Shown here one piece after another: positions 3,526 to 46,368 of a stretch of DNA of 48,900 nucleotides. The stretch covers positions 1 through 48,900 of the forward strand of contig VMCJ01000040.1 in assembly GCA_008081395.1 (NCBI GenBank), written 5' to 3'. Each line of letters begins with the position of its first letter. Position 1 is the stretch's first letter. Both the position numbers and the translations under genes were made by a program. The DNA comes from Rhodospirillales bacterium. Its GTDB lineage: Bacteria; Pseudomonadota; Alphaproteobacteria; Bin95. The notes under the pieces were generated by a model. That model did no database searches. It saw only the letters and a program-made list of their open reading frames with translations, and had not been told where the DNA came from.

Positions 3526-4203
3526 ATGGAATATTTAACTGAACTCTGGCCAGTAATTTCGCTCACCTTAAAGCTAGCTTCTGTAACTACAGTGCTACTG
3601 TTATTGATAGGATCCCCAATTGCATGGTTCTTAGCGCGCTGCAAATCTGGTTGGAAAGAACCTCTTGCCGCGTTGATCGCGATGCCATTGGTACTGCCAC
3701 CCACAGCTCTTGGTTTTTATTTGCTTTTGGCTTTAGGTCCAGATGGACCCGGCGGATGGCTTGCAAATCTTTGGGGTGGGCGCAGCCTCGCCTTTTCATT
3801 CACCGGCCTTGTAATTGGCTCGATGGTCTATTCGCTGCCGTTTGTCGTGCAGCCCATTCGCAACGCATTTGAGGCAATTCGCGAGCCAACATTGGAAGCA
3901 GCTCGGACCCTTGGCGCCACCCCAACGGACATCTTTTTTCGCTTAGCCTTACCACTGGCGCAGCGAGGAATTCTCACTGGCGCTATCCTGGCTTTCGCCC
4001 ATACCATAGGAGAATTCGGCGTTATTCTGATGATAGGCGGCGATATTCCTGGAGAAACTCGCGTTGCCTCAGTGGCGTTGTACGACTTCGTCGAAGCATT
4101 GGAATGGGGCAAAGCTCATATCCTCGCCGCAGGCATGATTGCATTTTCCTTTCTGGTAGTTCTCACCGCTCTTATGCTCAGCAAAACTCAGCGGACATCC
4201 TAA
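3526..4203 (+). CDS. modB: Molybdate ABC transporter permease ModB
   Basis: 225 residues with five or so hydrophobic segments, the usual size of ModB. The cytoplasmic EAA loop that contacts the ATPase is clear (EAARTLGATPTDIFF, about residues 124–138), as is the GEFGVILMIGGDIPGET segment characteristic of molybdate/tungstate permeases. It starts 18 bases after the LppC-like gene and ends 2 bases before the modC start, so the two transport genes are translated together. No modA binding protein is adjacent, so the receptor must be elsewhere. The Mo-hydroxylase genes from 9.4 kb on are the likely beneficiaries of molybdenum uptake (inference). Confidence 0.92.
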   Translation: MEYLTELWPVISLTLKLASVTTVLLLLIGSPIAWFLARCKSGWKEPLAALIAMPLVLPPTALGFYLLLALGPDGPGGWLANLWGGRSLAFSFTGLVIGSMVYSLPFVVQPIRNAFEAIREPTLEAARTLGATPTDIFFRLALPLAQRGILTGAILAFAHTIGEFGVILMIGGDIPGETRVASVALYDFVEALEWGKAHILAAGMIAFSFLVVLTALMLSKTQRTS

Positions 4204-4205
4204 GC

Positions 4206-5297
4206 ATGAACACTGATAGGATCATTGCACAATTTAAAGGAAAGGTAGGCGGCTTTTCAGTCGACGCAAACTTTGAAATTCCTCTATCTGGTGTGACTGC
4301 ACTTTTTGGGCCGTCAGGATCAGGAAAAACAACCATCCTCCGTTGCCTTGCTGGTCTTACAAAACTTCCAGGCTCGCTAAGTGTTGGGAATTTAGCATGG
4401 CAGACACCTAACCATTTCACTCCGCCCCATCTAAGACCCATTGGTTTTGCATTTCAGCAAGCCGAATTATTTCCCCATTTATCGGTGAACAAAAATCTGG
4501 ATTTTGCGGAAAAACGGTCTGCAAGACGCCAGGGTGCAGGCACACCAATAGATAGATCGGTGATTGTTGAATTATTGGGTCTCACGCATTTATTGAGACG
4601 CATGCCAACCAACCTCTCTGGAGGTGAACGACAGCGCGTTGGCATCGCGCGAGCCTTATTATCACGCCCCCGCTTACTTCTTTTAGATGAGCCGCTGGCC
4701 GGTCTTGATCAGTTGGCAAAAGAGGAAATCCTCCCATACCTTGACAATCTCACTACAGCATCAAACGTCCCTATAATTTATGTAAGTCACGATATTGGTG
4801 AGGTGGCACGTTTATCAGACCTTATTCTCCAAATATCCAAAGGCCGGGTCGTGGGAATAGGGCCGGCGAACGAAATGGTCGAGCGCCTTGGCCTTGATGC
4901 GGGAGTATCATTATTCGAAGAGAGTGTTCTTTTGACTGGCCATATTACTAGCCATGATAAAGCGAACAGAATGACACAAATCAGTATGGCAAATGGCCAG
5001 CTGGCATCACCTATTATTGATCTCCCTATTGCACACAAGGTTAGAATTCGGGTCAGAGCACGTGATGTGGCCATTGCATTGGAGGCACCAAAAGCCATCA
5101 GTATTCGCAATATATTGCCTGCGACCGTGGTTATTTGTGAGATTGACCAAGCAACTGGATCAGCCAATGTGTCACTTGATCTTGGGGGACAAAGCCTGCG
5201 TGCACGAATTACGCTTGCTTCGCTGAATGAACTTGATTTGCGACCAGGTAATCAGGTGTTCGCGTTGATCAAAAGCGTAACGTTTGATGGGCGCTAA
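4206..5297 (+). CDS. modC: Molybdate ABC transporter ATP-binding protein ModC
   Basis: 363 residues from ATG 4206, two bases after the modB stop. The Walker A motif GPSGSGKTT sits at residues 35–43, the ABC signature LSGGERQRVG at about 136–145, Walker B as LLLLDEP and the switch His in YVSHD. The C-terminal ~120 residues fit the TOBE/MOP-like oxyanion-binding domain of ModC, with paired strands such as RIRVRARDVAIALEAP. It would power molybdate import with ModB. The reading frame is open further upstream to 4104 inside modB, but 4206 gives the family-like N-terminus. The stop overlaps the end of the convergent aminotransferase gene by 4 bases, leaving no room for a terminator between them. 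Confidence 0.93.
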   Translation: MNTDRIIAQFKGKVGGFSVDANFEIPLSGVTALFGPSGSGKTTILRCLAGLTKLPGSLSVGNLAWQTPNHFTPPHLRPIGFAFQQAELFPHLSVNKNLDFAEKRSARRQGAGTPIDRSVIVELLGLTHLLRRMPTNLSGGERQRVGIARALLSRPRLLLLDEPLAGLDQLAKEEILPYLDNLTTASNVPIIYVSHDIGEVARLSDLILQISKGRVVGIGPANEMVERLGLDAGVSLFEESVLLTGHITSHDKANRMTQISMANGQLASPIIDLPIAHKVRIRVRARDVAIALEAPKAISIRNILPATVVICEIDQATGSANVSLDLGGQSLRARITLASLNELDLRPGNQVFALIKSVTFDGR

Positions 5298-9286: not shown

Positions 9287-9417
9287 ATTAAAAGATGGGT
9301 GAAAGAAGTATCAATGGAGATTGAATCATCGTATGTGGACTCATATCTTGGTGAGTAATGTTGAAAATTCGCGAGCAGCGCTGCGCGATACCGCTAATCT
9401 CTAAAGGCAATTTTATT

Positions 9418-10062
9418 ATGGAAATGCAAGGCGAAGCCCAAATTCCCGCACCAAAGCAGGTAGTCTGGGACGCATTGAACAACCCCTCAGTTCTGCGTGA
9501 GTCAATTCCTGGTTGTGAAGAGTTAAACCAGGAAGGTGATGATAGCTTTACCGCAAAGGTTAAAGCGAAAGTAGGGCCTGTCAGCGCTAGGTTTTCAGGA
9601 AAAGTCCACTTGTCAGATATTGATCCCCCAAACGGTTATCGCATTCATGGAGAAGGTTCGGGCGGAGCGGCTGGTTTTGCTAAAGGCGGCGCAACTGTAA
9701 ACCTCGAAGATGATGGCGCTGGCGGAACTGTTTTGAAATATAGTGTGGATGCTAGCGTGGGTGGCAAGCTAGCACAGATCGGTTCTCGGTTGATTGACGG
9801 AGCCGCCCGCAAACTTGCCGACGAATTTTTTGAAAAATTTGCCAAACTTGCGGCAGAACAGAGCTCGGCCGCAGAGACTGACGTTGATAATGAAACAGTG
9901 ATACAAAAAACATCAACTTCAGACCAAACATCTACTACCGAAGGTAACGTATCAAATAGCTCGGAGCCGGGAAAAACCTCTCCTGAAAAAGGTATTTCTC
10001 TGCCTATATGGCTGTTAGGCTTAGCGATTATCCTAGGGGTTTTGCTTTACGCTTTCTTTTAA
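9418..10062 (+). CDS. coxG: CoxG-like SRPBCC protein with C-terminal membrane anchor
   Basis: 214 residues from ATG 9418, with AAAGG about ten bases upstream; the frame is open to 9358 but that extension lacks support. Residues 1–150 match carbon monoxide dehydrogenase subunit G: MQGEAQIPAPKQVVWDAL at the N-terminus, GPVSARFSGKVHL, and a GGTVLKY strand with the final helix ADEFFEKFAKLA. A polar Ser/Thr-rich linker follows, then a single membrane helix at the C-terminus (PIWLLGLAIILGVLLYAFF). In Oligotropha, CoxG helps anchor CO dehydrogenase to the membrane; the tail here would serve that purpose. It is the first gene of a coxG-S-M run and is divergent from the antiporter gene. Confidence 0.9.
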   Translation: MEMQGEAQIPAPKQVVWDALNNPSVLRESIPGCEELNQEGDDSFTAKVKAKVGPVSARFSGKVHLSDIDPPNGYRIHGEGSGGAAGFAKGGATVNLEDDGAGGTVLKYSVDASVGGKLAQIGSRLIDGAARKLADEFFEKFAKLAAEQSSAAETDVDNETVIQKTSTSDQTSTTEGNVSNSSEPGKTSPEKGISLPIWLLGLAIILGVLLYAFF

Positions 10063-10162: not shown

Positions 10163-10627
10163 ATGCCAAGCGTATCAATGACAATTAATGGCAAGCAAGT
10201 TGCAGGTGAGGTCGAGGAGCGCACACTGCTCGTCGACTTTATTCGTGAAGACCAACGTCTCACAGGAACACATGTTGGATGTGACACCAGTCAATGCGGC
10301 GCTTGTGTTATCCATGTGAATGGTGAGGCAGTAAAAGCATGTACAATGCTCGCTGTTCAAGCGAACAATTCTGAAATAACCACGATCGAAGGCCTCGCGA
10401 ATGGCGACGATCTACATCCAATGCAAGAGGCCTTTCGAGACAACCACGGCCTGCAATGTGGCTTCTGTACTCCTGGAATGATTATGAGTGCCGTTGCTCT
10501 CGCTAAAAGAAATTCTGCGCCCTCCGAAGCAGAAGTGCGTCACTACTTGGAAGGCAATCTCTGCCGTTGCACCGGCTACCATAACATCGTCAAATCAGTG
10601 ATGGCCGGCGCAAGGGCTATGACCTAA
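10163..10627 (+). CDS. coxS: Mo-hydroxylase small subunit, two [2Fe-2S] clusters (CoxS/XdhA type)
   Basis: 154 residues, the standard size. The plant-type ferredoxin cluster ligands are C40, C45, C48 and C60 (in [12 protein letters not shown]...KAC). The second, helical-domain cluster uses C99, C102, C134 and C136 (CGFCTPGM and [10 protein letters not shown]). Both sets are complete, so it should pass electrons from the Mo centre to FAD. It follows coxG by 100 bases and precedes coxM by 23. The large subunit that should complete the heterotrimer is not next but begins at 15909. CO as substrate should not be assumed. Confidence 0.96.
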
Positions 10628-10650
10628 GTCAGAGATCAAAAGAGGAAATA

Positions 10651-11442
10651 ATGTATAATTTCAAATACCAAGTTGCTTCCTCAGCTGAAGACGCAACATC
10701 GAAAATAAATGCGTCGGACGAAGGTAAACTTCTTGCAGGTGGCATGACACTTTTGCCAACTATGAAACAGCGGCTGGCAATGCCCAGTGATCTTATTGAT
10801 CTATCTGGGGCCTCACTGACCGGGATAACCGCATCAGAGAAAACAGTATCTATCGGCGCCATGACTACCCATGACACGGTTGCCAACTCCAAAGAAGTAT
10901 CAACAGCCATACCTGCACTGGCAAAATTGGCCGGTGGAATTGGGGACCCAGCAGTGCGAAACCGTGGTACCATTGGGGGTTCAATTGCTAATAATGATCC
11001 AGCAGCGGATTATCCTGCCGCTGTGCTTGGACTGGGTGCAACAGTTATAACTAACAGGCGGTCGATCAGCGGCGATGACTTTTTTAAAGGTATGTTCGAA
11101 ACGGCTCTGGAAGAAGATGAGGTAATCGTTAAAGTTGATTTCCCAACTCCTCTCACAGCTTCCTACGTAAAATTCCCCAATCCTGCATCAAGATACGCCA
11201 TTGTCGGCGTGTTTGTAGCGAAAACAATTTCGGGTGTGAGAGTAGCCGTGACTGGTGCAGGTGCGTGTGTATTCCGAGCAACAGAGATGGAAGCTGCACT
11301 AACGAAAGATTTTTCCCCTGCCGCGTTGAACGATTCATCGATCTCCGAGGATGGGCTTAATGCTGATATTCACGCAAGTGCCGAGTATCGTGCACATCTG
11401 GTTGGAGTAATGGCCAGACGTGCCGTAGCTGCTTGCGAATAA
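10651..11442 (+). CDS. coxM: Mo-hydroxylase medium FAD-binding subunit (CoxM type)
   Basis: 263 residues, slightly shorter than typical CoxM (~285). Both FAD-binding signatures are present: AGGMTLLPTMKQRL at residues 29–42, and a GDPAVRNRGTIGGSIANNDP segment near residue 100. AGAGACVFRA begins the C-terminal CO-dehydrogenase flavoprotein domain, which appears compact. The start ATG has AGAGGA five bases upstream. It lies 23 bases after coxS. A convergent epimerase gene ends 40 bases downstream, closing this transcription unit without the large subunit. It would transfer electrons from the 2Fe-2S clusters to an external acceptor. Confidence 0.95.
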   Translation: MYNFKYQVASSAEDATSKINASDEGKLLAGGMTLLPTMKQRLAMPSDLIDLSGASLTGITASEKTVSIGAMTTHDTVANSKEVSTAIPALAKLAGGIGDPAVRNRGTIGGSIANNDPAADYPAAVLGLGATVITNRRSISGDDFFKGMFETALEEDEVIVKVDFPTPLTASYVKFPNPASRYAIVGVFVAKTISGVRVAVTGAGACVFRATEMEAALTKDFSPAALNDSSISEDGLNADIHASAEYRAHLVGVMARRAVAACE

Positions 11443-14822: not shown

Positions 14823-15707
14823 GTGGAGTATTTTTTTCATCTCCTTATCAGTGGGCTCTTATCTGGTCCCGTTTATGCGGTGGTTGGGGTGGCTTTTGTT
14901 GTTCTTTATCGCGCTTCATCGGTTTTAAATTTCTCTCTCGGAGCTTGGGTAAATCTTGGAGCGAAATTAACTGGTATAGGCACCTCAACGATTGGACTCC
15001 CCCTATTTATAGCGATCCCAGGAGCACTAGCTGCACTCTCTGGTTTGGCCGTAATTTTTAACAAACTGGTCGTCGACAAGCTTTCAAATCGTCCTATCAC
15101 ATCCATGGTGATGGCCACGCTTGCACTCGGTGTTCTTATGCGTGCAGGTTCAGCTTGGACACTAACTGGACTACCAAGCGAAATTGTCTTGCCTTTTGGC
15201 AACGAGCTACTTTGGTGGGGAGATATTCCCCTTCCACCTTCTCGCTTACTAGCAAGCTCAGCCGCAGTTGGAATAATCGCTGGGCTTTGGGTTTTCTTTG
15301 AGTTCACTCGAGCTGGTATTGCTCTAAGAGCAATTGCTGACGATACCGCAGCCGCTGCTTCAGTTGGTATCCCATCTATGCATTATCTATCCTTAGCTTG
15401 GGCATTATCTGCAGTGGCAGCTGTCGCCGGGGGAATACTATGGACGGTAGATGGGCTCGGTGGCTTTTCCATGACGTTGGTACTTGCAAAAGTTTTACCG
15501 GTAGTGGTCATAGGAGGCCTTACAAGTTTTGCAGGGACAATAGTTGCTGCAATGCTAATTGGCGTTACGGAAAATATGGCTGCGGGTTATCTTGATCCTG
15601 TAATTGGGACAGGGTCCGGCGCACTTGTATCAGGCCTTTTAATCTTCATAACTCTCGCCATTAGTCCTAATGGTCTATTTGGTAAAGCAAGTGTGCAAAG
15701 AATTTGA
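14823..15707 (+). CDS. Branched-chain amino acid ABC transporter permease, LivH type (orphan)
   Basis: 294 residues with eight or so membrane segments. LivH traits include LISGLLSGPVYAVVGVAFVVLYRAS at the N-terminus (partly quoted as LLSGPVYAVVGVAF), the ASVGIPSMHYLSLAWALS cytoplasmic region that contacts the ATPase, and VVIGGLTSFAGTIVAAMLIG. The start is a GTG at 14823 with a weak ribosome site, suggesting coupling to the HDAC gene ending 14 bases earlier. No LivM, LivF, LivG or binding protein occurs in the window, so it cannot form a transporter from local genes alone. It either uses subunits encoded elsewhere or is a relic of a larger cluster. Confidence 0.88.
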   Translation: MEYFFHLLISGLLSGPVYAVVGVAFVVLYRASSVLNFSLGAWVNLGAKLTGIGTSTIGLPLFIAIPGALAALSGLAVIFNKLVVDKLSNRPITSMVMATLALGVLMRAGSAWTLTGLPSEIVLPFGNELLWWGDIPLPPSRLLASSAAVGIIAGLWVFFEFTRAGIALRAIADDTAAAASVGIPSMHYLSLAWALSAVAAVAGGILWTVDGLGGFSMTLVLAKVLPVVVIGGLTSFAGTIVAAMLIGVTENMAAGYLDPVIGTGSGALVSGLLIFITLAISPNGLFGKASVQRI

Positions 15708-15908
15708 CCATCACACCAGTTGCTAACGATTTAATGTGAAATTACGTCCATGTTTAAATTGGTCGCATAAATTTTTTATTTTCTTGGCCCAAAGAAAAAA
15801 CAATAAATTCTCGACACATCTAAATATTTTTAACAGAAGGCTCAGGGAACGGGTCGCATAAACTTGTATCCTATATATGATCTGTATGCCGCCTCGAAGG
15901 ATACCCAT
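15708..15908. promoter_or_regulatory. 201-bp upstream region of coxL with an 11-bp direct repeat
   Basis: This AT-rich gap between livH and coxL contains GGTCGCATAAA twice in the same orientation, at 15761–15771 and 15852–15862, 91 bp apart. Between them TTTTCTT and AAGAAAA form a 7-bp inverted repeat around GGCCCA. The second direct repeat lies 46 bp before the coxL ATG. The arrangement suggests regulator binding sites controlling the large-subunit gene separately from coxSM. No strong −35/−10 pair stands out. Function is inferred only from the repeats. Confidence 0.4.
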
Positions 15909-18197
15909 ATGCCGCATCCTGCGCCCGGCCATGGCCGGCTAGAAGACCATCGATTTTTGACAGGCCAAGGCTTGTATACTGCCAACCTTCAAAGATTTGG
16001 TATGGCTCATCTTGCGGTCGTGCGTTCTCCTCATGCACACGCTGACATAATTTCCATAAATGTAGATCACGCGAAACGTTTTCCTGGCGTCTTACTCGTC
16101 ATGACAGGTCCAGACTGGACTGCTGCTGGTTACGGTGACTTGCAGAACACCTCTCAAATTCCAAGCGACCCTCCCCTAGTACGCCCTCCCCGTCCTGTAC
16201 TTGCTAGAGACCGGGTCCGACACCAAGGAGAGCCAGTCGCCTTTGTTGTTGCAAAAACTCGTGTAGCCGCAACCGATGCAGCAGAAGCGATAGCAATTGA
16301 CTACGCACCTCTGCCCTCAGTCGTTACTCCTGAGGATGCAGTTAAAGAAAATGCAATCCAAATTTGGGACGACGCTCCGGGTAATATTTGCGCACTCTTT
16401 TCCGCAGGGGATTGGGAAAAGGCTACAGCCAACATCAATGCTTCCACGCACATTCTCGAATTTACTTGCGATAACCATAGAGTTTCAGCTTTACCTCTCG
16501 AAACTAGAGCAGCAATTGGCGAGTACGACAGAAATTCGGACAGCCTGCTTTTGACAGCATCCACCCAAGGTGTGCACACGATAAAAAATGGCCTTCTTCC
16601 CGTCTTTAATATCTCGAAAGAAAAACTGCATGTAGCAGCTGAGGATGTAGGAGGAGGCTTCGGGGCGAAAAACTTTGTGTATCCTGAGTGGGCAATGGTG
16701 CTGGCTGCGGCTAAGAAATTAAATATTCCTGTTCGATGGATCGGCGATCGAAGCGAAGACGTCACATCTGGTGCTCACGGTCGCGCAGTTAAGACTTACG
16801 CCCGTTTAGGCCTTGATGCAGAGGGACATTTTACAGGCCTCGCCGCTGAACTCGTGGCCGATATTGGCGGACACCTTTCAACAGGTGCTCCAGGTAGTGG
16901 CACAGTATCGGTTACCCGTTCCATCCATGGCATTTATGATATTCCAGCCGTGGCAATGAAGGCGCAAGCGGTGTTTACGAATACCGCTCCAGTTGACGCT
17001 TATCGAGGAGCAGGAAAACCAGAAGGCAATTATATGATGGAGCGTCTGGTTGATGAGGCGGCCCGACAGTTTGGGTTCGATCCAATAGACTTACGCCGCA
17101 AGAACGCAATACAAACGTTCCCCTACAAAACTCCACTTGGTTTTGATATCGACATTGGCAGGTTTAAAGAAAATATTGAAGATGCGGTAAAAATAGCCCA
17201 TCGCAACGATTTCAAAACACGACGGCAGGAAAGTGCTGAAAGGGGTCGCTTAAGAGGTCAAGGCTTTGCCTGCTTCCTAGAAAGTGCCAGAGGTGCCCCA
17301 TCTGAAGCTGCAGCACTAAGCTTCTCCGACGATGGAATGATCGAAATACGTGTAGGGACTGAGTCGAACGGCCAAGGCCATGAGACAACATTTAAGCGTC
17401 TCACAGCAGATCGCCTTGGCGTTGAAATAGAAGTAATCCGATATATCCAAGCCGATACTCGCGAGACAACAATGGGTAATGGCCATGGGGGCGCTCGCTC
17501 GATGCATATGGGCGGCACTGCAATTTACCACACAATTGAATCTGCTCTAGAAAAAGGACGGGCCGTAGCCTCCCAACTATTGCAAGCAAACCCTGAGACC
17601 ATTTTCTTTCGTAGTGGTGATTTCATTGCTGGAGATGGGCGTGCAGTTTCCCTATTCGATGTAGCATCAGCTGCTAAGCAATCTGAATTTGGCTTTGAAT
17701 CTGGCCTCGACAGCTCATGGCATTGGGATAACGCTCCAATAACATGGCCTGCTGGATGTCACGTAGCAGAAGTTGAAATTGATCCAGAGACCGGAATGGT
17801 GGAGCTTCTCTCATACAACGCGGTAGATGATTATGGCACTCTACTGGACCGCCAACTTACCGAAGGCCAAGTGCAGGGCGGACTCGCTCAAGGGATTGGT
17901 CAGGCACTTAGTGAGAGGATTGTGTATGACAAGAATGGCCAATGCCTTTCAGCAACTTTAATGGATTATGCGCCCCCCTATGCTGCCTCTATTCCAAATT
18001 TAGAAGTCCACTTCGAGTCAACCATAAGTGAAGCTAACCCATTGGGGGTAAAGGGCTCAGGGCAAGCTGGAGCTATAGCGGCATCACAAACCGTTATGAA
18101 TGCTGTTGTTGATGCTCTTACCTCTGCGGGCGCTCAGCCAATCGACATGCCGGCAACCCCAGAGAAAGTTTGGTTAGCATTGAGGGACGCAAAATAG
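15909..18197 (+). CDS. coxL: Mo-hydroxylase large subunit (CoxL form II-like/XdhB type) with Glu→Gln at the catalytic position
   Basis: 762 residues from ATG 15909, with AAGGA eight bases upstream; the frame is open to 15864. The aldehyde-oxidase/xanthine-dehydrogenase fold begins GRLEDHRFLTG. Molybdopterin-binding segments are GGGFGAKN, QGHETTF and MGNGHGGARS. The active-site loop reads AYRGAGK at residues 364–370, like form II CoxL-type proteins (AYRGAGR) and unlike true CO dehydrogenase (AYxCSFR), so CO is probably not the substrate. At residue 719 the usual catalytic Glu of GxGExG is Gln (GSGQAG, codon CAA at 18063–18065). It presumably pairs with CoxS and CoxM 4.5 kb upstream. The flavin monooxygenase gene begins 4 bases after its stop. 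Confidence 0.92.
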   Translation: MPHPAPGHGRLEDHRFLTGQGLYTANLQRFGMAHLAVVRSPHAHADIISINVDHAKRFPGVLLVMTGPDWTAAGYGDLQNTSQIPSDPPLVRPPRPVLARDRVRHQGEPVAFVVAKTRVAATDAAEAIAIDYAPLPSVVTPEDAVKENAIQIWDDAPGNICALFSAGDWEKATANINASTHILEFTCDNHRVSALPLETRAAIGEYDRNSDSLLLTASTQGVHTIKNGLLPVFNISKEKLHVAAEDVGGGFGAKNFVYPEWAMVLAAAKKLNIPVRWIGDRSEDVTSGAHGRAVKTYARLGLDAEGHFTGLAAELVADIGGHLSTGAPGSGTVSVTRSIHGIYDIPAVAMKAQAVFTNTAPVDAYRGAGKPEGNYMMERLVDEAARQFGFDPIDLRRKNAIQTFPYKTPLGFDIDIGRFKENIEDAVKIAHRNDFKTRRQESAERGRLRGQGFACFLESARGAPSEAAALSFSDDGMIEIRVGTESNGQGHETTFKRLTADRLGVEIEVIRYIQADTRETTMGNGHGGARSMHMGGTAIYHTIESALEKGRAVASQLLQANPETIFFRSGDFIAGDGRAVSLFDVASAAKQSEFGFESGLDSSWHWDNAPITWPAGCHVAEVEIDPETGMVELLSYNAVDDYGTLLDRQLTEGQVQGGLAQGIGQALSERIVYDKNGQCLSATLMDYAPPYAASIPNLEVHFESTISEANPLGVKGSGQAGAIAASQTVMNAVVDALTSAGAQPIDMPATPEKVWLALRDAK

Positions 18198-18201
18198 GTC
18201 C

Positions 18202-19530
18202 ATGAAAAAAAAGCAACTATGTCTTGGTGCTTTCATGCGCCCTGTCTCGATCCATACTGCTGCTTGGCGTTTTCCCGGTGGATCACCAGATGCAAATTTT
18301 AGTCTCAAGACGATTGTTTCCCTCGCCAAAAAACTAGAAGCCGCGAAGTTCGATGCGTTTTTCATGGCAGATCATCTAGCTGTATTGAACATGCCTATGG
18401 ACGCCTTGAAGCGCTCAGCTACCGTCACCTCTTTTGATCCTCTAACGCTCCTTCCCGCAATCGCAATGGTTACTAATCGCCTTGGATTGATTGCAACTGC
18501 TTCTACTACTTTTGAAAGTCCGTACTTAATAGCACGGCGATTTGCATCACTAGATCATATTTCAGATGGCAGAGCTGGATGGAACATCGTTACAACTTCC
18601 AATCCTGACGCAGCAAAAAATTTTGGCATGGATGATCAAATGCCCCATGCGCAGCGTTATGCCCGTGCCAGAGAATTCTTCGACGTGGTAACCGGCCTGT
18701 GGGACAGTTGGGCCGATGATGCCTTCGTGCGCGACGTAGAAAAGGGAATATTTTTTGATCCAGACCGACTGCATATCCTAGACCACGAAGGTGAGTACCT
18801 AAAAGTCAGAGGCCCTTTAAATATCGCCCGCCCTATCCAAGGATGGCCTTTGATTGTTCAAGCAGGCGCTTCAGATGCTGGCCGTCAATTAGCAGCTGAA
18901 ACCGCTGAAATGGTTTTTTCTTCCGCTCGTAACATCCCTGACGCTCAAGAATATTTCCAAGACATTAAGTCACGAGCAGAAAACGCAGGCCGAAACCCAG
19001 ACCATCTTAAAATTCTTCCTGGCGCCCTGGTAATAGTTGGAGAAACGGAGTCAGAAGCTCGTGAAAAAAGAGACCTTCTCGATAGCCTTGTTCATTACGA
19101 CAGTGGCATTGCGTCACTATCCATAGCTCTAGGACATGACGCCTCAAAATTTGACCCAGATGCTCCGTTACCGAACGTTCCAGAGACTGAAGCCTCAAAA
19201 AGTGGCCAAGCTCGAGTAAAAAGCCTAGCACAAGCGGAAAACCTAACCGTTCGCCAACTCGCAGGACGTTTTGGTGGATATGCTGGCAATGCGTTTGTAG
19301 GAACGCCTAAAAGTATAGCGGACGAAATGGAAGCATGGATCGACGAGGACGCCTCTGATGGTTTCAACATCATGATGCCGTACCTACCGATGGGCCTTGA
19401 CGACGTATGTGAAAAAGTTGTGCCGGAACTTCAGCGAAGAGGAAGATTCCGGACTGAATATTCGGGCCGAACTTTAAGGGAAAATCTTGGTGTACCACGA
19501 CCCAAAAACAAATTCTTTCAGACACAGTAG
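18202..19530 (+). CDS. LLM-class flavin-dependent monooxygenase (NtaA/SnaA/DszA family)
   Basis: 442 residues, the usual length for the NtaA/SnaA/DszA branch of bacterial luciferase-like monooxygenases. Family features include LGAFMRPVSIHTAAWR near the N-terminus, DAFFMADHL, SDGRAGWNIVTTSNPDAA, HAQRYARAREF and the GWPLIVQAGASDAGRQLAAE phosphate-binding region (quoted at its core). These enzymes use reduced FMN from a separate reductase to oxidise sulfones, aminopolycarboxylates and related compounds. It begins 4 bases after coxL and is surely co-transcribed. No flavin reductase is adjacent; a nitroreductase-fold protein 22 kb away is a remote candidate. Substrate unknown. Confidence 0.93.
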   Translation: MKKKQLCLGAFMRPVSIHTAAWRFPGGSPDANFSLKTIVSLAKKLEAAKFDAFFMADHLAVLNMPMDALKRSATVTSFDPLTLLPAIAMVTNRLGLIATASTTFESPYLIARRFASLDHISDGRAGWNIVTTSNPDAAKNFGMDDQMPHAQRYARAREFFDVVTGLWDSWADDAFVRDVEKGIFFDPDRLHILDHEGEYLKVRGPLNIARPIQGWPLIVQAGASDAGRQLAAETAEMVFSSARNIPDAQEYFQDIKSRAENAGRNPDHLKILPGALVIVGETESEAREKRDLLDSLVHYDSGIASLSIALGHDASKFDPDAPLPNVPETEASKSGQARVKSLAQAENLTVRQLAGRFGGYAGNAFVGTPKSIADEMEAWIDEDASDGFNIMMPYLPMGLDDVCEKVVPELQRRGRFRTEYSGRTLRENLGVPRPKNKFFQTQ

Positions 19531-23703: not shown

Positions 23704-24039
23704 TTGAAAGCCATAAGAAATTTGATGGCAATAATTCTGATATTAGCCCCCTCGACAGCGCATCTATCCGAGGTCAAAAATCCTGAAATTCAAGACGCAA
23801 GTTTCGTAAAACAGATTAATGCTCTGGAACAAGAACTAGAGCTCACAAAAAAGGCACTTGCAGAAGCCCAGGAGAAAGCAAAAACCGCGCTCGATGCCGA
23901 GGCTCAGGCTAAGAATTTAATTCAAGCCCAGATCAGTGACTTAGAAGATCAGCGCACTTATGCAATTATCGCTGCAGTCATAATGTTTTTATTAACTATG
24001 TTTGCATTATTTCGGAAACCAAGGCCAACCACATCATGA
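23704..24039 (+). CDS. Small coiled-coil membrane protein of unknown function
   Basis: About 111 residues if translation starts at TTG 23704 (GGGA upstream); a TTG at 23671 would add 11 residues. I do not recognise a family. Visible parts are an N-terminal hydrophobic signal or anchor (LMAIILILAPSTAHL), a polar heptad-like helix rich in Glu, Lys and Ala (about residues 35–85), and a second membrane helix near the C-terminus (YAIIAAVIMFLLTMFALF) ending in a basic tail, RKPRP. The topology suggests a periplasmic coiled coil tethered at one or both ends. Its stop overlaps the hydantoinase A start by 4 bases (ATGA), so it is translated as part of the operon. It may be a membrane partner of the neighbouring enzymes. 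Confidence 0.68.
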   Translation: MKAIRNLMAIILILAPSTAHLSEVKNPEIQDASFVKQINALEQELELTKKALAEAQEKAKTALDAEAQAKNLIQAQISDLEDQRTYAIIAAVIMFLLTMFALFRKPRPTTS

Positions 24040-26099
24040 CATGGACAATTGGCGTAGACGTTGGTGGAACTTTTACAGATTTCCACGCCCGTAACGATGT
24101 TTCGGGAAAAGAATTGGTCTTCAAACGGCCATCAACACCACATGACCCAGGTGAAGCAATTCTCAAAGGCCTAGAAGAATTAGAAAAGGCACATAATCTG
24201 CCACTAACTGAAATCGCTAGGATTGCGCACGGAACAACAGTAGCAACTAATGCTCTGATACAGCGGAAGGGCGCATTAATAGCTGCTGTTGCAACCAAAG
24301 GCTTCCGGGACCTTCTCGAGATTGGCCGTCAAGTTCGTCCTCATATGTACGATCTCAATCTCGATAAACCAGATCCTCTTGCAAGCGAAGCAATGCGTTT
24401 TGAGGTTGCTGAAAGACTTAACTGGCAGGGTGAAGTAGTTACCCCTTTGACCGATGCAGAAGCGTCAAGGGTCGCGAAACAGGTAGTCGAAAGCGGAGCC
24501 GAAGCCGTAGCAATTTGCTTTCTTTTTGCCTACCTAAATCCCCAGCATGAGCAAAAATTAAGGGACGCAATACTTTCTCTAAAACCAGAAATGCGTGTTT
24601 CGATTGCTTCTGACGTACAACCAGAATTTCGCGAATACGAGCGTTTCCAAACAACTGCCATTAACGCCTATCTGCAACCTCGGTTGGCCAGTTATGTAGA
24701 ACACTTAGCGTCGGGCCTAAATCATCGCGTTGGCTCAGCGACGCTTGGCATCAATCAATCGTCTGGCGGCCTAATGTCCGCCACGAAGACTGCCGCATTT
24801 CCGGTGCGCACAGCTTTATCTGGTCCTGCGGCAGGCGCAGTAGGAGCTGCCTATGTTGCACGTAACGCGGACCGCCCTTTTGTTATTACCTTAGACATGG
24901 GTGGAACGTCAGCTGATGTCGCTCTTATCGCTAATGCTGATACAGAAATTACATTCCAACGAGACGTAGCCGGGTTTCCTATCAGGCTGGCCATGGTGGA
25001 CATCGATACGGTCGGAGCCGGAGGAGGTTCAATCGCTTGGTTTGAACGAGATGGATTGTTGAAGGTAGGCCCAATTAGTGCAGGTGCTGCACCTGGTCCT
25101 GCATGTTACGGCCAAGGCGGTACAGAGCCTACGGTAACAGATGCAAACCTCGTTCTGGGCCGCCTATCCGCCACAGGCTTACTGGATGGTGCACTTCCGT
25201 TAAACACAGAGTCTGCTGTGTCCGCTTTAAAGCCAATTGCGGACCGCATCGGCATATCTGTAGAGGAAGCGTCTCTTGGAATTTTGGCAATTGCCGTATC
25301 AAATATGAGTCGTTCAGTGCGTCGAATGTCGGTTGAGAGAGGTCACGACCCCCGTAATTTCACTTTAATGGCCTTCGGAGGAGCAGGCCCCTTACACGCT
25401 CGAGATGTTGCTGCAGAATTAGGAATGTCTGAGGTACTTGTGCCGCCTGCACCCGGCATTGTATGTGCCCAGGGCTTACTCGTCTCAGATCAAAAAGAAG
25501 ATTTTGTCGCAAGTGTGCGGCTTCCACTATCACAAACCGCAATGGCGGAAGCAGCTAAAATGATTGGGAATTTGGCTGAACTTGCCCATTCATGGTTTGA
25601 GTCCGAACGCCTTCCAGATGAAGGAAGGTCAATGGAGTTATCCCTTGATCTCCGCTATGTCGGACAAAACTTCGAGCTAATCGTACCTGCCGCCTCGGGG
25701 GCCAATCTAACTGCACAAGATTTGCCTGATGCAGAGACGCTAGCAAATCTATTTTTTGATGCACATGACCGCGCCTATGGCTTCCACGATGCAAGCGCAC
25801 CAATCGAAATTATAAACTTTAGAATGACAGCTCGGGGAAGACTTTACGAACAAACGCAGAAAAATGAGCGAAAAGAAAACTCTGGCCCACCTGAACCCGA
25901 GAGTACGCGAACCGTTTGGTTCGATAGTAACGCTGGGATTGAAACACCCGTATATCGCAGAGAAAAGCTCTACCCAGGACTTCAGTTTGAGGGGCCGGCA
26001 GTAGTTGACCAATTAGATGCAACTACGCCCATATTTCCAGGCGATCGGGTAGAGGTTTTGGCAGACGGTTCCATTCTAATTCGACTTCAAGGAGCCTGA
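24036..26099 (+). CDS. hyuA: Hydantoinase/oxoprolinase family protein, A (ATPase) subunit
   Basis: 687 residues, the normal length for HyuA-type subunits. The ASKHA nucleotide-binding signatures are present: GVDVGGTFTDFH at the N-terminus, AHGTTVATNALIQRKGA and DMGGTSADVALI. In the family these subunits hydrolyse ATP to activate a cyclic amide, ketone or similar carbonyl compound together with a B subunit (N-methylhydantoinase, 5-oxoprolinase, acetone or acetophenone carboxylase). The start overlaps the stop of the small membrane protein, and hyuB begins 3 bases after its stop. Which reaction applies cannot be told from sequence; no third carboxylase subunit is nearby. Confidence 0.94.
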   Translation: MTWTIGVDVGGTFTDFHARNDVSGKELVFKRPSTPHDPGEAILKGLEELEKAHNLPLTEIARIAHGTTVATNALIQRKGALIAAVATKGFRDLLEIGRQVRPHMYDLNLDKPDPLASEAMRFEVAERLNWQGEVVTPLTDAEASRVAKQVVESGAEAVAICFLFAYLNPQHEQKLRDAILSLKPEMRVSIASDVQPEFREYERFQTTAINAYLQPRLASYVEHLASGLNHRVGSATLGINQSSGGLMSATKTAAFPVRTALSGPAAGAVGAAYVARNADRPFVITLDMGGTSADVALIANADTEITFQRDVAGFPIRLAMVDIDTVGAGGGSIAWFERDGLLKVGPISAGAAPGPACYGQGGTEPTVTDANLVLGRLSATGLLDGALPLNTESAVSALKPIADRIGISVEEASLGILAIAVSNMSRSVRRMSVERGHDPRNFTLMAFGGAGPLHARDVAAELGMSEVLVPPAPGIVCAQGLLVSDQKEDFVASVRLPLSQTAMAEAAKMIGNLAELAHSWFESERLPDEGRSMELSLDLRYVGQNFELIVPAASGANLTAQDLPDAETLANLFFDAHDRAYGFHDASAPIEIINFRMTARGRLYEQTQKNERKENSGPPEPESTRTVWFDSNAGIETPVYRREKLYPGLQFEGPAVVDQLDATTPIFPGDRVEVLADGSILIRLQGA

Positions 26100-26102
26100 G
26101 GG

Positions 26103-27683
26103 ATGCCTACTCTAGACTCAATTGGCTTAGAAATTCTCTCCAATGCTCTCAAGTCCATAAACGATGAGTGTTTTGTGGCCCTCATGAAGGCCAGTTATTC
26201 AACAAACATTAAAGAACGACATGACCATTCAACCGCAATAATGAGTGCAAATGGTGATTTGATTGCTCAGGCTGATATGAGCTTACCAATTCATGTTGCA
26301 TCCATGAGTGGTCTGATGCGTTGCGTTCTTGAAAAATATGGTGGCGATATTCACGCCGGTGATATTTTCGTTGCAAACGATCCTCACACTGCTGGCGGCA
26401 CCCATCTACCTGACGTTAACTTTGCAGCGCCTGTCTTTATACATGACGAGCTTATTGGTTTTGTGTGCAACATAGCGCACCATGCAGATATTGGTGGAAT
26501 GGCTGCTGGTTCTATGTCGGGAGGCATGACCGAGATCTATCAGGAAGGGCTTCGAATACCAGTAACTCGAATTGCTCAGCGGGATGAAATTAAGCAAGAG
26601 ATTCTGGATATTTTTCTACTTAATGCTCGCGCCCCTCAAGAGCGCCGCGGGGATTACTACGCCCAGATAGCGGCCGCCAAGTTAGGTGTTCGCCGGCTTC
26701 ATGAGCTAGGAAGCCGCCATGGTGCAGAAACACTGAAAGAGGGATTTCAACAACTACTTAAACGCTCGGCTGACCGGATGGCACTTGCTTTAAAAGAAGT
26801 TCCAGATGGCGTCTATGAATTCGAAGACTTTATGGATGATGATGGCGTCAAAACAATCGATGTACTTCTTAAGGTCCGAATTGAGGCCAAAGCTGGAAAA
26901 CTCAGTTTTGATTTTACCGGCACAGCACCTCAAACAGCCGGCAATATCAATATGACATTGAATGCAACACAGTCTGCAGTCATTTTTGCCATTAAATCTC
27001 TGCTCGACCCTGAGGCGCCTAACACCCAAGCCGTTATTGATTGCGTTGATATACAAATTCCAAAAGGTACAGTTGCCAGTGCGGTGTTCCCAGCGTCCGT
27101 TGCTGGTCGTGCTCACACCTGCCAACGGGTAATAGATGTTGTGATGGGCGCGCTTGCTCCTGCTCTACCTACTCTTGTGCCCGCGGCACCAAATGGAGCC
27201 AATACAATGGCAGTTTTCTCTGGGATCGATCCTAGGTCTGGAGATCCATATGTTTACCTCGAAACAATTGGTGGAGGCGCAGGGGGCCGACCAACAAAAC
27301 CAGGTAAAGATGGGGTACAAACCGGCATAACCAATACATCCAATCTGCCAGTTGAAGCCATTGAAAATGAATATCCGCTTATGGTTCTAGAGTATGGGCT
27401 TGCGCCTAATTCAGGAGGTAAAGGCAAGCATTCTGGAGGCCGTGGAATTAGAAGAATTGTAAAACCTATTGGGCATCAGTGCATTTTTAATGGCGTAGGC
27501 GAACGATTCCGAAACCCACCCTGGGGACTTGCCGGCGGCGAAGATGGCGGAAGAGGCCGTTTTGCGATGATCAACGACAAAGGTGAGGAAGCACCTCTTC
27601 CAGGCAAAACAGGAGATAGAATTATCGAGCAAGGTGGTTCTGTATTGATGGACTCACCAGGCGCTGGTGGTTGGGGCAAGTGA
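26103..27683 (+). CDS. hyuB: Hydantoinase/oxoprolinase family protein, B subunit
   Basis: 526 residues, full length for HyuB. Characteristic segments are MKASYSTNIKERHDHSTAI, FVANDPHTAGGTHLPDV with the metal-site His/Asp residues, IAHHADIGGMAAGSMSG, and a glycine-rich C-terminus (GGEDGGRGRF ... DSPGAGGWGK). It starts 3 bases after hyuA and completes the ATP-dependent amidohydrolase or carboxylase pair. It is the last gene of the run that begins with the 2-hydroxyacid dehydrogenase. A paralogue without an A partner is at 39042–40799. No terminator is obvious before gpt, 84 bases downstream. Confidence 0.94.
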   Translation: MPTLDSIGLEILSNALKSINDECFVALMKASYSTNIKERHDHSTAIMSANGDLIAQADMSLPIHVASMSGLMRCVLEKYGGDIHAGDIFVANDPHTAGGTHLPDVNFAAPVFIHDELIGFVCNIAHHADIGGMAAGSMSGGMTEIYQEGLRIPVTRIAQRDEIKQEILDIFLLNARAPQERRGDYYAQIAAAKLGVRRLHELGSRHGAETLKEGFQQLLKRSADRMALALKEVPDGVYEFEDFMDDDGVKTIDVLLKVRIEAKAGKLSFDFTGTAPQTAGNINMTLNATQSAVIFAIKSLLDPEAPNTQAVIDCVDIQIPKGTVASAVFPASVAGRAHTCQRVIDVVMGALAPALPTLVPAAPNGANTMAVFSGIDPRSGDPYVYLETIGGGAGGRPTKPGKDGVQTGITNTSNLPVEAIENEYPLMVLEYGLAPNSGGKGKHSGGRGIRRIVKPIGHQCIFNGVGERFRNPPWGLAGGEDGGRGRFAMINDKGEEAPLPGKTGDRIIEQGGSVLMDSPGAGGWGK

Positions 27684-39041: not shown

Positions 39042-40799
39042 ATGGTTAATCAGCCCGATGAAAATGATAAGGCGGTATTAGCTGAACAGAGCCCCATTGA
39101 CGCTATAGCACTTGAAGTCTTTTCTAACCGCCTACTTGCTATAGCGGAAGAAATGGGCAGACGTCTTGTCCGATCATCATTTTCTCCAAATATCAAGGAA
39201 CGACGGGATTGCTCGACCGCATTATTTACGGCTGACGGCAGGTTAATAGCTCAGGCGGCGCATATACCAATCCATCTAGGCTCTCTATTCGGAGCTGTTG
39301 ATGCGATTATTGACAGATATCCAATAGAAAACATGAAGCCTGGGGACGCATTTATCGCCAACGATGCATATCTATGTGGCGGAACACACTTGAATGACAT
39401 TTCGATTATCGAGCCCGTTTTTGTAGATGGACACGTGCACTATTTCGCCGCCTGCATTGGTCACCACACTGATGTAGGCGGTCCAACCCCAGGCTCGATC
39501 GCTCCAGATGCGAGTTCTATTTTTGAGGAAGGAATTAGAATTCCAGCCATCCAAATTTCACGAAATGGTGAAATCGATGCAGGACTATTAGATCTTATAG
39601 CTCATAACACCCGAGAACCCGAAGTACGCAAACTCGACCTGGAAGTGCAATCAGCTGTATCGCACTTTGGGGCAATACGTCTTGCCGAACTAGCTTCTCG
39701 TGAGGGTATTCAGCGCATGAATTTCCTCACCGACGAACTTATCAGGTATGCCAAGCGCCGACTTGCAGGACGCATTAATGAACTTCCAGATGGCGAATAC
39801 ACTCATACGGTATGGATGGATGACGATGGCCTCGGAGGTGATCCATTACCGATTTGCGCAAAGCTAATAATCAAAGGCCAACAGCTAATTTTTGACTTTG
39901 CAGGAACTGGAAATCAATCCCGAGGCGGATTTAACCTGCTACCTTCGGGCGTGAAGGCTACGGTCGGATATGCAGTAAAAGCCCTACTCGATCCAGAACT
40001 TCCACCTAACACAGGGCTTTTCGAGGCATTGGAACTTCATATTCCTGAAGGAACAATACTAAATCCGAGATTTCCCGCAGCAGTTGGCGCAAGAACCACC
40101 ACTTGTCAGAAGCTCTCGAGTGCTATTTTCGGAGCATTGCAGCCAGTTCTACCTGAAGAAAGAACGATGGCTTCAAGTCACGATATACTTGCCTCTATGG
40201 TATTCGGAGGCGAAACCGTGGCTGGGACTCCCTATGTGTATTTAGAGACAATAGGTGGTGGGAATGGGGCTCTTTCCAACATGGACGGTATGGATGGTGC
40301 TCACTGCCATATCACGAATTCCTTAAACACGCCCGCAGAGGCGGTCGAAAGCAGCTATCCACTTCGCGTTATCGAATATTCTTTGATTGAAGGATCAGGA
40401 GGAATAGGTCGTATGCGGGGTGGCATGGGGCTTGCACGAGAAATTGAGGTTGTTGGCCAACACGCTAGTTTTTCCAGTCGCGGAGATAATTTTAAAACAT
40501 CACCCAAGGGTGCAAACGGTGGAGGTGATGGTGGAAGAGCTCGCGTTATCGTGAAACCTAAAAATGGACCTCAGAGAATTATAGACGTTAAACAGCGTAG
40601 GTTGATGATGGCTCCAGGTGATAGAGTGCGGATGGAAACGCCTGGAGGAGGTGGCTTCGGAGAACCTCATTCACGATCGCCTGATCACTTAGCAGCTGAT
40701 ATCGCAGATGATCGTCTTTCAAGTGATGTCACAGAGATATACCCAGCCGCGCTTGCTCAGGATGCTAAAAGGCGCAGTTCGCTTTTAAAATCACGTTGA
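39042..40799 (+). CDS. Hydantoinase B/oxoprolinase family protein without an adjacent A subunit
   Basis: 585 residues, longer than the HyuB at 26103 by an N-terminal ~20-residue leader and a ~35-residue C-terminal tail after the glycine-rich end (METPGGGGFGEP). Family segments are FSPNIKERRDCSTALF, FIANDAYLCGGTHLNDI, IGHHTDVGGPTPGSI, YVYLETIGGGNGA and GANGGGDGGRARV. No HyuA gene is nearby; the gene follows the amidohydrolase by 14 bases and precedes MaoC by 40. It may borrow the HyuA at 24036 or function alone. Confidence 0.92.
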   Translation: MVNQPDENDKAVLAEQSPIDAIALEVFSNRLLAIAEEMGRRLVRSSFSPNIKERRDCSTALFTADGRLIAQAAHIPIHLGSLFGAVDAIIDRYPIENMKPGDAFIANDAYLCGGTHLNDISIIEPVFVDGHVHYFAACIGHHTDVGGPTPGSIAPDASSIFEEGIRIPAIQISRNGEIDAGLLDLIAHNTREPEVRKLDLEVQSAVSHFGAIRLAELASREGIQRMNFLTDELIRYAKRRLAGRINELPDGEYTHTVWMDDDGLGGDPLPICAKLIIKGQQLIFDFAGTGNQSRGGFNLLPSGVKATVGYAVKALLDPELPPNTGLFEALELHIPEGTILNPRFPAAVGARTTTCQKLSSAIFGALQPVLPEERTMASSHDILASMVFGGETVAGTPYVYLETIGGGNGALSNMDGMDGAHCHITNSLNTPAEAVESSYPLRVIEYSLIEGSGGIGRMRGGMGLAREIEVVGQHASFSSRGDNFKTSPKGANGGGDGGRARVIVKPKNGPQRIIDVKQRRLMMAPGDRVRMETPGGGGFGEPHSRSPDHLAADIADDRLSSDVTEIYPAALAQDAKRRSSLLKSR

Positions 40800-45186: not shown

Positions 45187-46368
45187 ATGGCCGAAGACAC
45201 AACCTGGCTAGTAACTCCCGTTGGCCAACGCGCAGATGGCAGCTGGATTACCGACGTGCTTGCCGAAAGAGCTAGAGAAAATGGACTTCTATGGCGTTAT
45301 GCGGAGGCCACTAACTTTTCCAGGGAACGAATAGAAGTAGTTCGCGGCTTAACTGTTGATCAGTTGAAGGAGTTGTACTACCGGCGCGGTTGGACAGATG
45401 GCTTACCTATCATCCTACCCACCAGATCTCGCGTCAGAACTTTTCTACGCCATGCAAAACAAAGTGGCGATAAACATATTGGAGAGGCGGAACCTCTCTT
45501 TGGACAGGTTACGATGGAAAAAGCGGCTGCCAATGCGGTAATGGCTGGCTGTGATCCAAAACACTTTTGTTTTGTCATTGCGGCACTGGAAGCAGTTCTC
45601 GAGCCTTCTTTTAACCTTCGTGGCGTTCAAACGACCGACGAGAATGTGACGCCACTTCTCTTGCTTTCAGGGCCAGATTTAGAGCGCTTAGATCTTCATG
45701 GAGGTGTAGGTGCTTTGGGACCTGGCTGGCGAGGAAATATGGTTATCGGCCGAGCTCTTCGGCTCGCAATTCAGAACATTGGGGGAGGGTGGCCCGGGAC
45801 CACAAATCTGGCTGGCCTTGGCCAACCGGGCCGCCTATCGCTTGTTCTGCCAGAAAATGAAACTGATTCTCCTTGGCCGAGCTTGAGGGAACGGCTTGGT
45901 TATTGCGAGAATGACACACTTCTTATGGCTCTGCGAGCTGAAGCAACTGTTACGTGCACGGGTAGGATAGATGACCTAGGAAGCTTGCTGCGTTCCTCTC
46001 TATCAGCTTTCAGTCGCCTGCATGGAGGAACATGTGCCGTAGCTATTGCTCCATTTATTGCTCAGACATTGGCCCAAGATGGTTGGACGGAGCAGGATGT
46101 TAGAAAACACCTCTGGCAACTATCTCATGCCGATCCGGAAGAATATAATCGAAGTTGGATTATGAAGGATCTTCAACCACGAACGGGGATAGCAGATTGG
46201 GCAATTGCAGCCCTGAAAGCAGGGAATGGACCACCTGCTGTAGAAACACCAGACCATATTGTTCTTGTCGTTTCAGGAGCAAACGCGGCAATTCCACAAC
46301 ACGCGTACTTCCCAACTTGGGGATTTCCTGAAGCTCGAATCACAAAAAAGATTCAACGGATCGATTGA
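45187..46368 (+). CDS. Conserved-looking protein of unknown function with GWTDGLPI motif
   Basis: 393 residues, soluble, with no signal peptide or membrane helix. I do not recognise a named enzyme. Features seen are YYRRGWTDGLPIILPTRSRV near residues 60–80 (motif core GWTDGLPI), a Gly-rich middle (LHGGVGALGPGWRGNMVIGR and NIGGGWPGTTN, in part), and a C-terminal strand HIVLVVSGANAAIPQHAYF. From memory, similar GWTDGLPI-type proteins accompany UGSC-motif proteins in catabolic loci, but I cannot confirm that here. It is divergent from the Rieske operon, so it may belong to the same pathway. An AAGGA ribosome site supports ATG 45187. Confidence 0.75.
   Translation: MAEDTTWLVTPVGQRADGSWITDVLAERARENGLLWRYAEATNFSRERIEVVRGLTVDQLKELYYRRGWTDGLPIILPTRSRVRTFLRHAKQSGDKHIGEAEPLFGQVTMEKAAANAVMAGCDPKHFCFVIAALEAVLEPSFNLRGVQTTDENVTPLLLLSGPDLERLDLHGGVGALGPGWRGNMVIGRALRLAIQNIGGGWPGTTNLAGLGQPGRLSLVLPENETDSPWPSLRERLGYCENDTLLMALRAEATVTCTGRIDDLGSLLRSSLSAFSRLHGGTCAVAIAPFIAQTLAQDGWTEQDVRKHLWQLSHADPEEYNRSWIMKDLQPRTGIADWAIAALKAGNGPPAVETPDHIVLVVSGANAAIPQHAYFPTWGFPEARITKKIQRID

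Follow-up and report, generated by a model that had tools for sequence, protein, structure and literature searches.

Quinoline 2-oxidoreductase and 6-hydroxypseudooxynicotine dehydrogenase each work with an iron-sulfur (S) and a flavin (M) subunit of their own. In the accepted mechanism of the molybdenum hydroxylases, a glutamate takes the proton of the Mo-OH group and so starts the attack on the substrate (PMC3624778). Replacement of this glutamate by glutamine in mouse AOX1 (E1265Q) gave a protein with 60% Moco and no detectable activity on any substrate tested (PMC2671166). As to the subunits, the glyceraldehyde oxidoreductases GAOR2 and GAOR3 of Sulfolobus tokodaii combine two different large (L) subunits with one common M/S pair (PMC4726530).

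Among the described systems, the form II CoxL proteins are the closest sequence neighbours (35-45% identity) of the large subunit considered here. It resembles them in fold, domains, active-site loop and cofactor-binding motifs, but differs from them by Gln at the catalytic Glu position, by AYRGAGK where they have AYRGAGR, and by four further signature residues; nor does its gene have CoxS and CoxM genes of its own beside it. The large subunits of quinoline 2-oxidoreductase (1t3q) and 6-hydroxypseudooxynicotine dehydrogenase (7dqx) likewise share its fold and cofactor motifs but have retained the Glu, as has Sulfolobus GAOR2 (Glu672). The E1265Q variant of mouse AOX1 carries the same substitution at the Mo centre; however, it is a dead laboratory mutant with an otherwise unchanged pocket, whereas the Gln described below occurs naturally, is fixed and comes with further changes.

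A glutamine at the position of the catalytic glutamate

The sequence studied is the forward strand of positions 1-48,900 of contig VMCJ01000040.1 (assembly GCA_008081395.1, genome label G000); this whole stretch of 48,900 nucleotides is called the window. The Gln gene with its motifs, the CoxG, CoxS and CoxM genes, the deletion scar and the NtaA/DmoA-family gene lie on its plus strand. The gene for the Gln-type, CoxL-like molybdenum-binding large subunit spans 15909-18197 and encodes 762 amino acids from an ATG start, with an alternative TTG start at 15864. Positions 18054-18071, GGCTCAGGGCAAGCTGGA, are translated as GSGQAG, and within the segment KGSGQAG (18051-18071) the codon CAA at 18063-18065 specifies Gln at the position of the catalytic Glu; this is residue 719 when counted from the ATG at 15909 and residue 734 from the upstream TTG. 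In HMMER alignments with the best solved relatives, namely Mycobacterium CO dehydrogenase, quinoline 2-oxidoreductase, 6-hydroxypseudooxynicotine dehydrogenase, Hydrogenophaga CO dehydrogenase and Sulfolobus glyceraldehyde oxidoreductase (8uem, 1t3q, 7dqx, 1ffu and 4zoh), Gln719 stands opposite the Glu of KG.GE/KG.AE in all five large subunits, and no gaps occur nearby. The original prediction, which had placed Gln719 of KGSGQAG at the family's catalytic Glu position, is thus confirmed by the reading of the sequence and by these five alignments. It had also named, as a possible refutation, an alignment with another Glu at the Mo centre; this and misalignment in general are ruled out by the ungapped alignment to the five structures and by a comparison of 18 Gln-type with 36 Glu-type proteins, in which no new invariant acidic residue appeared in the Gln-type group.

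In other respects the protein has the appearance of a normal member of its family. The Pfam domains Ald_Xan_dh_C, MoCoBD_1 and MoCoBD_2 all match far above cut-off, and the three motifs that had been predicted to be intact were all found: GGGFGAKN (16650-16673) and QGHETTF (17373-17393), both cofactor-binding motifs recognized by motif reading and orthologue comparison, and the active-site loop AYRGAGK (16998-17018), which corresponds to the form II CoxL loop AYRGAGR with Arg replaced by Lys at position 370. The AlphaFold2 model has a pLDDT of 88.9 and a pTM of 0.88; against the solved large subunits of CO dehydrogenase and quinoline 2-oxidoreductase, the protein shows 28-33% identity and TM scores of 0.91-0.92. 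Judging from these comparisons, it is a member of the xanthine oxidase family by descent and fold, but falls outside the Glu-dependent hydroxylases, as the catalytic Glu at GxGE is replaced by Gln in 18 of 18 clade members.

More specific assignments failed. Form I aerobic CO dehydrogenase (CoxL) is ruled out by the absence of the Cu-binding Cys loop AYxCSFR, AYRGAGK having Gly for Cys; the TIGR02416 score is 424.5 bits against a cut-off of 991. Form II CoxL proper was rejected since AYRGAGK is found in 18/18 proteins and the gene is solitary rather than part of a coxSLM operon. The glyceraldehyde dehydrogenase alpha subunit (NF041018) was rejected at 521.5 bits, below the curated cut-off of 790, although Sulfolobus GAOR1-3 (4zoh) provide the best NCBIfam matches for the L, S and M proteins alike (NF041018/20/19), all of them below cut-off.

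The glutamine is fixed in a clade and accompanied by other substitutions

The gene, with GSGQAG, is present in five of the five genomes of the genus, the four orthologues being 64-83% identical to the window gene. The order comprises 14 genomes of a single family, and the other two genera have no Gln-type gene. Wider sampling, of 385 genomes of the class and 399 of the phylum, added members from five more alphaproteobacterial families, at 48-52% identity. Gln is found in all 18 full-length clade members (48-83% identity, six alphaproteobacterial families), encoded by CAG in 16 cases and by CAA in two; a partial member, L113, has Gln too. All 36 CoxL-type paralogues at 35-45% identity have Glu. 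In a quick tree of 56 proteins, the Gln group makes up one side of a branch with an SH-aLRT of 100, which corresponds to a single change. Hence, the question whether Gln is clade-wide and forms a single clade in a tree can be answered in the affirmative, with conservation at about 50% identity, and the close homologues with Glu that might have exposed a sequencing error were not found within the clade. Because 18 of 18 members across six families have Gln, chance and a one-base error as its source are ruled out. A pseudogene is ruled out as well, by a frame open in all members and a dN/dS of 0.060 between the window gene and its nearest orthologue (in genome G002), a sign of purifying selection.

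Sixteen further matches to the pattern GxKGxGQxG, retrieved from genomes of the class, include only two Mo subunits, L113 and L109, the rest being unrelated. The latter (L109:382-2697, genome G224) is a distant Mo subunit of 35.5% identity with Gln at the same site. The plasmid collection contained no clade member (best identity 42%), and a single-protein query of the genome contigs yielded just one relative. In the part of the literature that was covered, a natural Gln variant is not reported, and AYRGAGK was not found.

Five other positions co-vary with Gln719, each fixed in 18/18 clade members and rare or absent in the Glu-types: Arg370 is replaced by Lys beside the AYRGAG loop (Lys in 18/18 Gln-type, Arg in 35/36 Glu-type proteins), Tyr456 by Phe, Gly461 by Arg, Thr526 by His and Ser529 by Ala. 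The last two lie in the segment GHGGARSMHMGG (17481-17516), where residues 526-531 align with TYGSRS of CO dehydrogenase, a stretch that lines the Mo site. The Mo-cofactor motifs GGGFG, QGHETT, the GxxSRS region and EGQxxGG are kept across the clade, SRS reading ARS. L109 has Ala529, but Arg370 and Thr526 rather than Lys370 and His526; the shared Ala529 hints at a coupling between positions 529 and 719, while the two differences suggest that L109 may represent a second, independent Glu to Gln event.

A solitary gene and a truncated operon

None of the clade genomes has an S/M pair belonging to the Gln gene. A separate CoxG-S-(L)-M operon lies 4-10 kb upstream of it in G000 and G002, and in G001, G003 and G004 the Gln gene and the CoxG-S-L-M operon are on different contigs; the other clade loci have no S or M gene near the Gln gene, except for an unrelated complete set beside L134. 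Close Glu-type relatives are solitary as well, with 11 of 12 loci checked lacking S and M over 13-20 kb, so the solitary organization is older or broader than Gln, and the idea that Gln brought about the loss of S/M is ruled out.

In the window, the operon consists of a CoxG-like gene (9358-10062; Pfam COXG and synteny), a CoxS-like [2Fe-2S] subunit gene (10163-10627; Pfam Fer2/Fer2_2, 93% to G002, pN/pS 0.054) and a CoxM-like FAD subunit gene (10651-11442; Pfam FAD_binding_5 and CO_deh_flav_C, 81% to G002), the latter two being candidate partners in trans. The four sister genomes have a single operon made up of CoxG, CoxS, a Glu-type CoxL and CoxM (L037, L041, L042 and L043), whereas in the window CoxS and CoxM, both intact, are 23 bp apart, and about 2.4 kb of Glu-type CoxL is missing at the scar (10628-10650). 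The nearest match to the lost gene elsewhere in G000 is only 43% and represents a different paralogue. In G002 the gene is flanked by near-identical direct repeats, GATCACAAAGGGAGGAAAT and GATCACAAGGAGGAAAA, and the scar in the window, GATCAAAAGAGGAAATA, is the product expected from recombination between repeats of this type, by which the Glu-type CoxL was probably deleted; an assembly fault is a possible alternative. The repeats include ribosome-binding sites, and the loss is precise. The molybdate transporter genes modB and modC (3526-5297, above the NCBIfam cut-offs) precede the CoxG-S-M genes by about 4 kb. The prediction that both partner subunits have full Fe-S and FAD motifs was correct in so far as the genes are real and intact, but at a distance of 4.4 kb they are part of another operon; the complete three-subunit enzyme that it implied is not supported by the comparison, since in the relatives the large subunit encoded between these genes is a different one, of the Glu type, deleted here.

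Altogether, G000 encodes 7 large, 3 Fe-S and 2 FAD subunits. One contig (C90) carries a full set, another (C23) an S gene with an Ior-type L gene, and a third (C6) a CoxS/CoxM pair that has lost its own L, which is the only other S/M set for five L genes; four of these five are on contigs without S or M (C2, C8, C21 and C28). With these numbers and the precedent of Sulfolobus GAOR2/GAOR3, subunit sharing in trans appears to be the likeliest arrangement for the Gln protein. In Sulfolobus the L genes are encoded apart and the sharing of one M/S pair was demonstrated, whereas here we infer it; G000 is 96% complete, so that an S/M set may be missing from it.

The immediate neighbour of the Gln gene, 4 bp downstream, encodes an FMN monooxygenase of the NtaA/DmoA family (18202-19530; TIGR03860, 567.7 bits), but this gene adjoins it only in G000, G002 and G003, three of the five genomes of the genus. 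Elsewhere, the Gln-type gene shares a 4-bp overlap with a HyuA-like gene (L098), or is adjoined by MlrC (L095) or acyl-CoA carboxylase subunits (L093). These neighbours vary among genomes and name no substrate; at most, their annotations hint at the breakdown of nitrogen-containing compounds. The window also contains a caprolactamase-like HyuA/HyuB pair (24036-27683, below cut-off), a second HyuB-like gene (39042-40799), a lone LivH/UrtB-type ABC permease gene (14823-15707) whose direct neighbours include no partner permease, ATPase or binding protein, and a gene (45187-46365) for a 393-aa protein that matches nothing in NCBIfam and adjoins a Rieske dioxygenase gene set.

What could a molybdenum enzyme do with glutamine?

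Given that E1265Q inactivates mouse AOX1, it would be unsafe to suppose that the clade still follows the usual mechanism without change. Because the Glu to Gln replacement is stable, other active-site residues have changed and Fe-S/flavin genes are not adjacent, this widespread bacterial branch probably does different chemistry from its relatives. We favour, with a probability of roughly 0.55, the view that the clade is a selected subfamily of re-tuned Mo enzymes with altered Mo chemistry and shared S and M subunits. The Gln protein would bind the Mo-cytosine dinucleotide cofactor, would borrow CoxS/CoxM encoded at 10163-11442, or another pair elsewhere, as its electron-transfer scaffold, and would carry out a Mo-dependent reaction in which no carboxylate deprotonates Mo-OH. 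Some other group would accept the proton, the leading candidates being the substrate itself and His526, which is invariant in the clade and, by its place in the sequence, beside the pocket; Gln719 would serve as a neutral hydrogen-bond partner to the substrate or to Mo-OH(H). That His526 replaces the Glu as base is no more than a guess from sequence position, and L109, which carries Gln separately without this His, counts against it. Of the original suggestion of a subfamily with altered chemistry, the subfamily is supported by the clade-wide Gln and the linked active-site changes; the chemistry itself we infer from the mutagenesis of a relative (PMC2671166).

Three other readings are to be considered. 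The lack of dedicated S/M genes in every clade member, together with the loss of the base of oxidative hydroxylation, would fit a solitary L subunit whose Mo centre acts as a Lewis acid in hydration, hydrolysis or C-N/C-O lysis: if no electrons leave, the protein can do without the Glu base and without Fe-S/FAD subunits. Some of the neighbours, of the HyuA/HyuB and MlrC types, are for amide or lactam breakdown. Yet the Glu-type relatives are just as solitary, S/M genes do occur elsewhere in G000 and their sharing has a precedent (PMC4726530), and nothing points positively to a redox-neutral reaction, which makes this reading unlikely. That a Mo clade of the xanthine oxidase fold gave up oxidative hydroxylation altogether, to become a solitary, redox-neutral hydratase, hydrolase or lyase, we regard as quite unlikely. 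An analogue, the tungsten acetylene hydratase, belongs to a family different from the xanthine oxidase fold, and we know of no member of the xanthine oxidase family that works without electron transfer, so that such a clade would be the first.

The inactivity of the mouse mutant (PMC2671166) could also mean that the L paralogue is a non-catalytic pseudoenzyme kept for binding, regulation or holding the cofactor. This is hardly what one would expect from a dN/dS of 0.06, from cofactor motifs retained across about 50% divergence, and from a Mo pocket in which specific, fixed and co-varying replacements are seen instead of loosening, and we consider it quite improbable. Least likely of all, though well served by a fold and an active-site framework that are mostly those of normal hydroxylases and by the electron transfer available from shared S/M subunits, is an ordinary oxidative hydroxylase of conventional chemistry that tolerates Gln, the deprotonation of Mo-OH being substrate-assisted or driven by solvent: the Glu is otherwise invariant (36/36), its replacement by Gln kills mouse AOX1, and five further positions have changed together with Gln719. 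Thus, we rank the re-tuned Mo enzyme with shared S/M subunits above the redox-neutral Mo enzyme, followed by the pseudoenzyme and then by the conventional hydroxylase.

Conclusions

Databases will tend to label the Gln proteins as "CO dehydrogenase large subunit" or "xanthine dehydrogenase family protein", thereby implying an activity that may be absent. A natural clade in which Gln is fixed, with matching changes around it, offers a test of whether the Glu base is obligatory or whether the fold does other chemistry, and the Fe-S and FAD genes retained after the deletion of their large subunit represent a natural experiment on the sharing of electron-transfer subunits among bacterial enzymes.
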